A DNA stretch of 55,542 bases, taken from contig JAFGNN010000015.1 in the NCBI GenBank assembly GCA_016926955.1, forward strand, positions 1 through 55,542, read 5' to 3'. A model generated the notes under the pieces. It was given only the letters and a program-made list of their open reading frames with translations. It was not told where the DNA came from and did no database searches. The position numbers and the translations under genes were made by a program. Shown piece after piece: positions 18,458-22,322 of the stretch. The number at the start of each line of letters is the position of its first letter. The first letter of the stretch is position 1. Source of the DNA: Spirochaetales bacterium. GTDB lineage: Bacteria; Spirochaetota; Spirochaetia; Treponematales; UBA12059.

Positions 18458-18486
18458 TTGACACGAGGAGCCTCCTCGGATACCAT
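18458..18486 (+). promoter_or_regulatory. Promoter of the Cas2-like gene, with a palindromic spacer
   Basis: -35 TTGACA (18458-18463, full consensus), a 17-base spacer, and -10 TACCAT (18481-18486), with 6 bases to ATG 18493. The mRNA should be leaderless or nearly so. Bases 18464-18478 are the perfect inverted repeat CGAGGAG-C-CTCCTCG, which fills the spacer and is a likely operator. Confidence 0.55.
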
Positions 18487-18492
18487 TCCGCC

Positions 18493-18780
18493 ATGTTCGT
18501 TTCCGTGGTCTGCGACATGGGCGGCGAGGATTCCCGGGCCGCCGTCTTCGATCTGCTGGCGCGGTACGGCTTCGAGAAAGTCCAGCGCGCCTGCTTCGAA
18601 TCGTCCCGAATCCTCGAACGTGAACTCGCCGGGCTCAAGCGGGACATAGACAAGGCCACGGATTACTACGACACCGTCAGGATATACCAGTATCCCGTCG
18701 AAGGCGCGCTCGTCGTCAGCGTGCTCAAGGAAAACCGCTGGCGGCGCGTAATAGTGCGCGCCCCGGCGCCAAAGCCCTGA
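18493..18780 (+). CDS. Stand-alone Cas2-like small protein
   Basis: A 95-residue protein with a ferredoxin-like pattern that resembles Cas2/VapD-type proteins. The first strand ends in Asp8 (MFVSVVCDMG), where Cas2 has its conserved metal-binding Asp. It is followed by a helix and the text YGFEKVQRACFE, which parallels the Cas2 segment YG-x-RVQ-x-S-x-FE. Later come a basic helix (LAGLKRDIDKATD) and the strand VRIYQYP, the Cas2-like 'RIY' strand. There is no cas1, no other cas gene and no CRISPR array in the window, so a role in spacer acquisition is unlikely. It lies 47 bases upstream of prfB on the same strand and may be co-transcribed with it. A nuclease or regulatory RNA-binding role is possible but unproven. 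Confidence 0.65.
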   Translation: MFVSVVCDMGGEDSRAAVFDLLARYGFEKVQRACFESSRILERELAGLKRDIDKATDYYDTVRIYQYPVEGALVVSVLKENRWRRVIVRAPAPKP

Positions 18781-18827
18781 GGTTCCGGGAAGCCTCACAC
18801 CATCTTCACCAACAGCGGAGGATAGCC

Positions 18828-19965
18828 ATGCTCGACGATTTCATCGCACCCGTAGAGGAACTTCGCAGGACAGTCATCGAAATCTGGGGGCGTCTTTGAC
18901 CCCGTCGCCATTCGCGCGGCCATAGACAAAAACGACGAAGCGACCGCTCAGCCCGGGTTCTGGAGCGACCAGGCCAAGGCCGAGCGCGTCATCGGCGAAA
19001 ACAAGATACTGAGGCAGCGGCTCGAAACCTGGGAATCGCTCAAACGCGACGTCGACGGCATCGTCGAGATCCTCGCGCTCGCGCGCGAGGAAGGCGATGC
19101 CACGATGGAAGCCGACATCGCCGCCGCTTACGACAGCGCGAAGTCGCGCTTCGACAAAGCCATCGTACTCGAACTTCTGTCCGGCGAGGCCGACCGCGCC
19201 GGCGCCTTCCTCACCATACACGCGGGCTCGGGAGGCACCGAAGCCTGCGACTGGGCGTCGATGCTCTACCGCATGTACTGCCGCTGGGCCGAGCGCCGTG
19301 GCTTCAAGTACGAGGTTGTTGACCTGCTCGAGGCGGAAGGCGGCATCAAGAGCGTCACCCTCGAGATCGCCGGAGCCTACGCCTACGGCCATCTCCGCGG
19401 CGAATCGGGGGTTCATCGGCTGGTGCGCATCAGTCCTTTCGACGCGAACGCCCGCAGGCACACGAGCTTCGCAAGCGTCGCGATCCTGCCGGTCATCGAC
19501 GATTCGATCGATGTCACGGTGAAGCCGGACGAGATCCGCATCGATACCTACCGCGCGGGCGGCGCGGGGGGGCAGAAGGTCAACAAGACCGACAGCGCCG
19601 TGCGGATCACCCACCTCGCCACGGGAATCGTCGTGACCTGCCAGAACGAGCGCAGCCAGTACAAGAACAAGGATGTCGCCATGGCGGTGCTCAAGAGCCG
19701 GCTCTACGAGCACTACCGCGAGGAGAAGGATAAGGAGAACGCCAAATTCCAGGCGGAGAAGAAGGAGATAGCCTGGGGCAGCCAGATCCGATCCTACGTT
19801 TTCCAGCCTTACACAATGGTCAAGGATCATCGGACCAAGTTTTCCGTAGGAAACGTGCAGGCGGTGATGGACGGCGACCTCGACCCGTTCATCGAGAACT
19901 GGCTCCGCTTCCGCTGGAAGGGAGGCGCCGCGGCCGCCGCCGACGAAGACGACGAAGAGGTCTGA
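18828..19965 (+). CDS. prfB: Peptide chain release factor 2, expressed by programmed +1 frameshift
   Basis: RF2 recognises UGA and UAA stop codons and triggers peptide release. The gene begins at ATG 18828 after GGAGGATAG, runs 23 codons (MLDDFIAPVEELRRTVIEIW...) to an in-frame TGA at 18897-18899, and continues in the +1 frame from GAC at 18898, giving 378 residues. The frameshift site is the classical RF2 arrangement (see the separate entry). Downstream the SPF anticodon-like motif is at 202-204 and the GGQ catalytic motif at 247-249 (GAGGQKVNKTDSAVRI). The C-terminus is acidic. The low-RF2 feedback loop should control expression. A hairpin-like inverted repeat (18778-18797) precedes the gene. 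Confidence 0.95.
18886..18900 (+). promoter_or_regulatory. prfB programmed +1 frameshift site
   Basis: GGGGG-CGT-CTT-TGA-C: an internal Shine-Dalgarno-like G run three bases before the slippery CTT, followed by TGA and C. This is the same spacing as in Escherichia coli prfB (GGGGG-TAT-CTT-TGA-C). Confidence 0.93.
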
Positions 19966-19979
19966 GGATACGGTCGGTC

Positions 19980-21425
19980 ATGCGCGCATTTTCCGCCGGA
20001 GCCTCGGGGCTGAAAGCCCTCGCTCCGCTCGCCGCCCTTTTGTTGACTCAGGCCGGGCTCCGGGCCGACGCGACGGCATACGATCCGGATACGCTGTGGC
20101 GCGTCGCGATAGTCGCGTTCGCCGTGGAACCCGGCAGCGGTGCGGCGGCGGAAAAAGCCGCCTCGACGGTTCCCTCGCTCTTGATCGCGGCGATCTCCGA
20201 CCTGCCCGAGCATCGCTACTCGATAGAAGCCGCCCGGGCCAGGGGGCGACGCCTGGCCGCGGTCTCCCGCACCTCCGCCGACAGGGCGCTCGCCGAGGCT
20301 CGCACGGGGCTCGACCGGCTGGTTTTCTCGCCGGCCGCGGGCGAGGCGGAGAGGAAGCGCCTCGAGGAGGCTTACCGGGTCGCGCTGCGGAACGCGGAAG
20401 AAGCCGCCGCGGGGGACGCCGAGGTGCCGGTCCCGCCGGCCAAGCCCATCGGCTTCCATGCCGTCAACAAGGCGGGCAGGCCGCTGGAGCTCAAGGTCTC
20501 CGTCCCTGAACTCGCCGCGACCGAGAGAATCGACATGGTGCTCTCCGGATCCGTCCGCCGCATCGGAGATTACCTCGCCTTCACGATAGAGGCTTGGGAC
20601 AGGGACCTCGGCATGCCGGTGGCCAGAATCATCGACTATTCCGCTCCCGATGACCTTGAGTCCTTTGTGACGCGGGCACTCCCGATTCTGCGCGAGGCCG
20701 TCGCTGGAATCGAAGCCAGGCGCGTCGTTTTCGGGACCGATCCGCCAGACGCGACGCTCTCCATAATTGAAGCATCCGGAAGCGCGCGCGCGCTGCTCCA
20801 ATCGGAGCGCGTCGTTTACCTGTATGGTCCTTTGGAGCGTACCCTCGTCGCGAGCGCGCCCGGACGCGAAACGCTCTCGCTCGCGCTCCCCGGATACGGC
20901 CCCGACGAGCGGATCGAGCTGACGCTCCCCCCCCTTCCGCTGGGTCCGGCCCTGTCGCTCGAATCCGTGCCGCCGGGAGCCACCCTTTACCTGGAAGGCC
21001 GGAAGGCTGGCGTCGCCCCCCTCGAGGTACCGGCCGCTCCCTTTCCGCGTGTCGCGGAATTCCGGCTCGAAGGCTTCAGACCCGCCACCTTCGTACTGGA
21101 TCCGGGCTCGACACGGGTTCCCGAGGCCGTGCTCGTGCCGGAAGCCGAGGCGCTACCGATGGCGATCGAGGCCAGACGCGACAGATTCTACGATTCGCTC
21201 GGCTGGTTCGTGGCCTCGCTCCCCGTTTCGGTGTTGTCCTGGCAGGTATACCGATCGTATTATGACGCGGCCCTGCTTGCGGGAACCTCTGATCCCGCCT
21301 ATGACAAGCTCTCGATATCCGCGGGAGCCGGCGGCGCCGCGTTCGCTGCGAGCGCGGGCGTGAGCGCGGTCCTGGCGGGGATTTCTGCGCTGAGGCTTTG
21401 GCATTACATCCGGTCAGCGGACTGA
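19980..21425 (+). CDS. Exported PEGA-domain protein
   Basis: A 481-residue protein with a probable N-terminal signal or anchor (LKALAPLAALLLTQAGLRAD). The middle contains a charged helical segment (EAERKRLEEAYRVALRNAEE) and a beta-rich domain. Residues about 320-370 form a PEGA domain (LSLESVPPGATLYLEGRKAG, then PLEVP and FRLEGFRP), a surface-associated beta fold. Near the C-terminus are two hydrophobic segments (GWFVASLPVSVLSW and an Ala-rich stretch), so the protein may be anchored in a membrane at that end. The precise role is unknown. It starts 15 bases after prfB, with GAGGATA as a possible ribosome binding site, and probably shares its transcript; ftsY follows after 30 bases. Confidence 0.75.
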   Translation: MRAFSAGASGLKALAPLAALLLTQAGLRADATAYDPDTLWRVAIVAFAVEPGSGAAAEKAASTVPSLLIAAISDLPEHRYSIEAARARGRRLAAVSRTSADRALAEARTGLDRLVFSPAAGEAERKRLEEAYRVALRNAEEAAAGDAEVPVPPAKPIGFHAVNKAGRPLELKVSVPELAATERIDMVLSGSVRRIGDYLAFTIEAWDRDLGMPVARIIDYSAPDDLESFVTRALPILREAVAGIEARRVVFGTDPPDATLSIIEASGSARALLQSERVVYLYGPLERTLVASAPGRETLSLALPGYGPDERIELTLPPLPLGPALSLESVPPGATLYLEGRKAGVAPLEVPAAPFPRVAEFRLEGFRPATFVLDPGSTRVPEAVLVPEAEALPMAIEARRDRFYDSLGWFVASLPVSVLSWQVYRSYYDAALLAGTSDPAYDKLSISAGAGGAAFAASAGVSAVLAGISALRLWHYIRSAD

Positions 21426-21455: not shown

Positions 21456-22322
21456 GTGAAGATAAGCGACCGCATCCGGAAAATGCTGGGCATCGCCCGG
21501 GTTTCCGACGATTTTTTTGACGAACTCGCGGACCTGCTGGTCGAGGGGGATCTTGGCGCCGGACTCGTGTCCGCGGCGGCCGACGAACTCAAGATCCGTT
21601 GTCGGTCGAAGGGTCTGAACGACGGTGACCTGATCCGCGCGGAGCTCAAGGCAGTCCTCGCCTCTTACGGAAAGGAGGCGCGATTCGACTTTGCGTCGAC
21701 AGGGCTCGACGTCGTCCTCGTTCTCGGCGTGAACGGCGTCGGGAAGACAACCACCTGCGCCAAGATAGCCCGCCGCTTCCGCGAGTCGGGGAGCGGCGTC
21801 GTGCTGGCGGCTTGCGATACCTTCCGGGCAGCGGCCACCGAGCAGCTCAAGCTCCATGGCGAGAGGCTGGGAGTTCGTGTCGTCTCGCAAGGCGAAGGAG
21901 CAGACCCGGGCGCGGTACTCTACGATGCCCTGGACGCGGCGCGCGCGGACGGTGCGGGCCTGCTGGTCGCGGACACGGCAGGGCGCATGCACACTAAACA
22001 GAACCTGGTGCGCGAACTCGGAAAGCTCGACAAGATAGCGCTGGCGCGCGTGCCGCCGGGTCGTTTGCGCAAGTTGCTCGTGGTTGACTCGACCACCGGA
22101 CAAAACGCCCTCCGCCAGGCCGAGAGCTTCGCCGCGGCGGTCAGTATCGACGCCCTGATCCTGTCCAAGTACGACTCCACCGCCAAGGGCGGCGTGGCGC
22201 TTGCCATCGCGAAGGAGCTGGGCATTCCCACCGCCTTTGTCGGCACGGGAGAGGGAGTCGACGATTTTTCGCCGTTCACCCTGGATGCTTACCTCGACGA
22301 AATGACGGGCTCGCTCGCGTGA
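21456..22322 (+). CDS. ftsY: Signal recognition particle receptor FtsY
   Basis: A 288-residue SRP GTPase receptor that docks ribosome-nascent-chain complexes at the inner membrane. The N domain (about 1-80) is followed by the G domain with GVNGVGKTTT at residues 91-100, DTFRAAATEQL, DTAGR, and the guanine-specificity region SKYDSTAKGG, in which the family usually has TKLDGTAKGG. The long acidic A domain of the E. coli protein is absent, as in many bacteria. The start is GTG 21456 with GAGGA 7 bases upstream. Its stop overlaps the next start (GTGA), so it is coupled to the exported protein and lolCDE downstream. Confidence 0.95.
   Translation: MKISDRIRKMLGIARVSDDFFDELADLLVEGDLGAGLVSAAADELKIRCRSKGLNDGDLIRAELKAVLASYGKEARFDFASTGLDVVLVLGVNGVGKTTTCAKIARRFRESGSGVVLAACDTFRAAATEQLKLHGERLGVRVVSQGEGADPGAVLYDALDAARADGAGLLVADTAGRMHTKQNLVRELGKLDKIALARVPPGRLRKLLVVDSTTGQNALRQAESFAAAVSIDALILSKYDSTAKGGVALAIAKELGIPTAFVGTGEGVDDFSPFTLDAYLDEMTGSLA

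Follow-up and report, generated by a model that had tools for sequence, protein, structure and literature searches.

cas2L, a conserved gene for a CRISPR-independent Cas2-fold protein with a putative leaderless start upstream of prfB in spirochaetes

Analyses of 55,542 nucleotides of a Spirochaetales bacterium (contig JAFGNN010000015.1; this whole stretch is called the window below) indicated that a 95-residue gene, here named cas2L, is probably (at a rough probability of 0.6) the leaderless first gene of a cas2L-prfB-PEGA-ftsY cluster and encodes a CRISPR-independent Cas2-fold protein that processes nucleic acid. The name Cas2L was coined in this analysis for the CRISPR-independent family.

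Gene order at the cas2L locus

The features of the locus are as follows.

18458..18463, + strand: -35 element of the cas2L promoter, TTGACA, read directly
18464..18478, no strand: 15-bp inverted repeat CGAGGAGCCTCCTCG within the spacer of the promoter, species-specific and without conservation
18481..18486, + strand: -10 element TACCAT after a 17-nt spacer, 6 nt from the ATG, in a putative leaderless architecture
18493..18780, + strand: cas2L, predicted Cas2-fold protein of 95 aa without a Cas1 partner
18817..18821, + strand: prfB Shine-Dalgarno sequence GGAGG, read directly
18828..19965, + strand: prfB (release factor 2), with RF-1 and PCRF domains, read directly
18894-18900, + strand: programmed +1 frameshift site CTTTGAC of prfB, the usual site, read directly
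19980..21425, + strand: PEGA-domain protein (PF08308), gene 3 of the presumed operon
21456..22322, + strand: ftsY (SRP receptor GTPase, PF00448), gene 4

Direct reading placed the cas2L ATG at 18493 and the stop codon at 18778-18780, followed on the same strand, 47 nt away, by the prfB ATG at 18828. This position directly before prfB, pointed out in an earlier sequence-only reading, was confirmed and is conserved in related genomes: prfB lay 3' of cas2L on the same strand in 76 of the 80 named loci, and three of the remaining four have downstream sequences too short to show it. In all of the first 30 relatives save one, where the contig ends, prfB was directly 3' of cas2L, and the gap between the two genes had a median of 23 nt (69 loci measured). 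The pairing spans many families of the class Spirochaetia, in which cas2L is nearly always directly upstream of prfB (locus L048 is the exception in the set with longer flanks), and in relatives with long enough flanks ftsY is found about 2.6-3.2 kb downstream in the same gene order. In spirochaetes, cas2L-prfB-PEGA-ftsY forms a conserved gene cluster.

In other spirochaete classes, seven loci (L068-L074) carry cas2L without a nearby prfB; their neighbours vary and a Shine-Dalgarno sequence is present. In the Treponema isolate DOLZORAL124_36_15 (L048 = G386; L146) cas2L is also found away from prfB, and there a Shine-Dalgarno sequence (CGGAGGAATTATG) replaces the leaderless promoter. Since cas2L is kept without prfB in these deep relatives and in one Treponema, the cas2L-prfB pairing looks secondary.

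Family, fold and conserved residues

The cas2L product matched the Pfam profile PF09827 at 32.4 bits (curated cut-off 23.8), while its match to TIGR01573, the NCBIfam Cas2 equivalog, reached 22 bits, slightly below the cut-off of 24.5. The window protein matched several Cas2 models of PADLOC; all 51 Cas2L members matched Cas2 models, and 37 of the 51 matched PF09827 at E <= 0.01. The AlphaFold2 model (input: 51 locus sequences) had a pLDDT of 96 and a pTM of 0.86, with the predicted element order E-H-E-E-H-E-E-E. Among the best rows listed by Foldseek and VIA-align, the best PDB matches were Cas2 proteins; the top Cas2 rows of VIA-align gave Z 9-11 (maximum 10.9) over 65-83 residues, above the VapD structures 6zi1 and 6zn8 (Z 8.3 and 7.5, rmsd 6.9). 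A Cas2 ferredoxin-like fold is well supported by this predicted structure, and the profile and PDB matches bear out the earlier description of the protein as Cas2-like.

Comparison of 113 distinct Cas2L proteins revealed that E36, K49, D60, R63, Q66, P68 and W83 are invariant and that D57 is present in 112; an R-x-[YF]-Q-[YF]-P motif together with W83 marks the family. Residue 8, which corresponds to the acidic residue after strand 1 of Cas2/VapD nucleases, is always acidic (Asp in 102 proteins, Glu in 11). PMC9510766 lists Tyr9, Arg17 and Arg19 beside the Asp as important for the RNase activity of SSO1404 Cas2. None of their counterparts in Cas2L is invariant, positions 7 and 15 being variable, so that the protein may have lost its nuclease activity or changed it. 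Comparison of the window gene with those of two same-genus relatives gave a dN/dS of 0.05-0.06, and cas2L is under purifying selection.

Distribution and independence of CRISPR

Scanning 84,980 species genomes with a pattern yielded 156 confirmed Cas2L relatives. Among the 80 of these that were listed, nearly all are labelled as spirochaetes and two merely as "bacterium", and some of the 156 may lie beyond the phylum; cultured carriers include Treponema vincentii, T. putidum, T. lecithinolyticum, T. socranskii, T. ruminis and Brucepastera. Cas2L was found in 91 of 393 sampled Spirochaetota genomes, as a single copy in each, and many spirochaete genomes are without it. No relative was found in viral contigs or phage records, and a phage or mobile origin of cas2L was rejected on this ground.

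The sequence-only reading had remarked that the window lacks Cas1. This holds beyond the window, for the whole source genome (98% complete), which contains no Cas1 and one Cas2 match only. Cas2L differs from a CRISPR adaptation Cas2 in that it is not encoded with cas1 (no Cas1 match was found in 35 of the 91 genomes carrying Cas2L) and does not group with CRISPR Cas2. Distinct CRISPR-type Cas2 genes, higher-scoring and most of them beside cas1, were present in 25 of 26 genomes carrying both Cas2L and Cas1. The phylogenetic tree, built on 98 columns with CRISPR Cas2 sampled from spirochaetes only and with a poorly resolved inner order, showed that Cas2L forms one side of a branch of length 2.4 with 100/100 support, opposite the spirochaete CRISPR Cas2. 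Cas2L constitutes a clade of its own that is inherited vertically and is independent of CRISPR. Cas2L and Cas1 co-occur with an odds ratio of 2.2 (p 0.001, with the kinship of the genomes ignored); this association was not adopted as a functional link because the genomes are related and the statistic ignores phylogeny.

Promoter and putative leaderless start

Of 106 Spirochaetia orthologues, 90 carry an exact TTGACA upstream of cas2L, where shuffling would predict 0.57, and in 79 of these 90 it lies 28-30 nt from the start codon. A Shine-Dalgarno-like motif was present in 3/106 orthologues and an ATG start in 104/106. For the window itself, the promoter proposed earlier was upheld as to the exact TTGACA, the 17-base spacer and the 6 nt between the -10 element and the ATG, but the -10 element (TACCAT) is weak and full consensus is limited to the -35. 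A -10 element 5-7 nt before the ATG, the absence of a Shine-Dalgarno sequence and conservation in relatives, the marks of a leaderless gene, are all found here. As the -10 ends about 6 nt before the ATG, transcription should begin at the ATG, and we infer that the cas2L transcript is leaderless, starting at or next to this codon. Conservation ahead of cas2L lies in the promoter of this leaderless kind, not in the palindrome.

The pattern TTGACA-N16-18-TANNNT-N5-7-ATG occurs at nine sites in the source genome, 18458-18495 included, while the reversed-pattern control gave none, which points to a general kind of promoter in this genome; leaderless genes seem to be common in the source lineage. 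Leptospira interrogans, of the same phylum, has abundant leaderless mRNAs with the same kind of start, about 440 Leptospira mRNAs having leaders under 10 nt (PMC5243855); those starts were mapped by RNA-seq, whereas the leaderless start of cas2L is deduced from promoter spacing.

A separate palindrome, (A)TCGTATACGA(T), was observed in the -10 region just before the cas2L start codon in L005, L006, L007, L011, L012 and L015 and is absent from the window.

The spacer palindrome

The stretch CGAGGAGCCTCCTCG at 18464-18478 is a perfect 7-bp inverted repeat (7+1+7) centred on one C. Arms of at least 7 nt arose in 582 of 200,000 shuffles of the window spacer (0.3%), and the palindrome considered by itself does not look random. 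Of the 90 orthologous spacers, however, only that of the window has arms of 7. In two same-genus relatives (L003 and L004), whose proteins are 95-97% identical to the window Cas2L, the left arm reads CGGCGGC where the window has CGAGGAG. The palindrome sits upstream of the expected transcription start and would therefore not be transcribed. It is species-specific and had been over-read as an operator: the perfect 15-bp repeat filling the spacer is there, while the role assigned to it was rejected on conservation, being broken in both same-genus relatives that keep cas2L, an outcome that the sequence-only reading had itself named as refuting.

prfB in genomes without cas2L

Nearly all tested genomes without cas2L retain prfB, mostly with the frameshift site. 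In 12 of 41 prfB loci from such genomes, a few of which were not resolved, a -10-like element precedes the ATG of prfB by 6-7 nt, TA-N3-T alone being a loose motif. The prfB of L222, for example, is preceded by TTGACA-N17-TATTCT-N6-ATG, and that of L223 keeps the promoter TTTGACAAGA, after which come a longer leader and a Shine-Dalgarno sequence. These arrangements fit a single promoter serving cas2L and prfB that would have passed to prfB upon loss of cas2L.

The 12 loci in which prfB has its own -10-like element are L218-L220, L222, L224, L225, L229-L231 and L233-L235. In L243 (G305), the start region of prfB at 1180-1330 has no CTTTGA frameshift site and the frame appears continuous.

Discussion

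In the reading that we favour, transcription would start at or next to the cas2L ATG and read on into prfB. The protein would form a Cas2-like homodimer with both Asp8 residues at the dimer centre, and as a housekeeping function would bind a nucleic acid and probably cut or process it. The neighbourhood of prfB would most likely reflect co-expression with the translation machinery and not control of prfB by Cas2L.

A less probable, though still credible, reading is that Cas2L is a non-catalytic Cas2-fold scaffold that binds nucleic acid or protein. The residues conserved in the family are other than the known RNase residues, 11 of the 113 proteins carry Glu in place of Asp8, and E. coli Cas2 does not need catalysis for adaptation, a result cited in PMC9510766; the invariably acidic position 8 speaks against a scaffold.

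We regard as doubtful the more specific proposal that the Cas2 fold was recruited to a spirochaete core function, as a CRISPR-free housekeeping nuclease with new invariant residues that serves, beside RF2, in translation or in the turnover of RNA. Slightly less probable again is that Cas2L influences translation termination or the level of RF2, for instance as an RNase that attacks stalled mRNAs or the prfB message, and that the gene pairing reflects this. The VapD/Cas2 superfamily includes RNases (PMC3506569) and the pairing is conserved across many Spirochaetia families, but cas2L occurs without a nearby prfB in the seven loci of other classes and in one Treponema, and the genomes without cas2L nearly all keep prfB. 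Control of RF2 by Cas2L is possible but disfavoured, and the effect on RF2 expression suggested by the sequence-only reading is weakened.

It is improbable that Cas2L is a VapD-like toxin of a toxin-antitoxin pair. VapD endoribonuclease toxins share a fold superfamily with Cas2L (6zi1, 6zn8). Cas2L nevertheless differs from them in that the gene is single-copy, chromosomal and vertically inherited, has no phage or viral relatives among those found, and showed no small conserved antitoxin-like partner next to it, the conserved neighbour being prfB or none.

Autoregulation, in which Cas2L dimers would bind the spacer palindrome and repress their own operon and hence RF2, is still less probable; it drew on a perfect 15-bp palindrome lying exactly between the -35 and -10 elements, and it loses its basis because that palindrome is unique to the source species. 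The notion that cas2L is the decaying remnant of a CRISPR-Cas locus since lost, suggested by Cas2 homology and the lack of Cas1 in the source genome, was rejected on the tree and selection results, as dN/dS is about 0.05 and Cas2L is monophyletic, old across the phylum and coexists with separate CRISPR Cas2 genes.

Returning to the reading of Cas2L as a CRISPR-independent, nucleic-acid-processing protein, its nearest known systems differ from it as follows. With CRISPR Cas2 (PF09827, TIGR01573) it has in common the fold, the sequence family over residues 1-66 and the acidic residue 8 after strand 1, but it has no Cas1 partner, forms a separate clade, falls below the TIGR01573 cut-off and carries an invariant R-x-[YF]-Q-[YF]-P motif of its own together with W83. 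The BPSL1038 subfamily of Cas2/VapD nucleases in Burkholderia (PMC10491678) is, like Cas2L, chromosomal, lineage-conserved and CRISPR-independent with an Asp after strand 1; it belongs to another phylum, and its D(X20)SST signature was found in 0 of the 113 Cas2L proteins. Standalone Cas2-fold proteins are already known (VapD, BPSL1038), and cas2L itself is real and little-known: our literature searches on orphan cas2 in Treponema or spirochaetes found no report of it, and none of the papers searched names cas2 together with prfB.

Cas2 profile models such as those of Pfam and PADLOC will flag Cas2L as an orphan cas2, which calls for caution. The breadth, conservation and fixed place of cas2L make it worth an experiment. 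Being lineage-wide, strongly selected, CRISPR-independent, fixed in its chromosomal place and present in cultured carriers, Cas2L offers a direct test of what the Cas2 fold does without Cas1, and it bears on the ancestral non-CRISPR role of Cas2.
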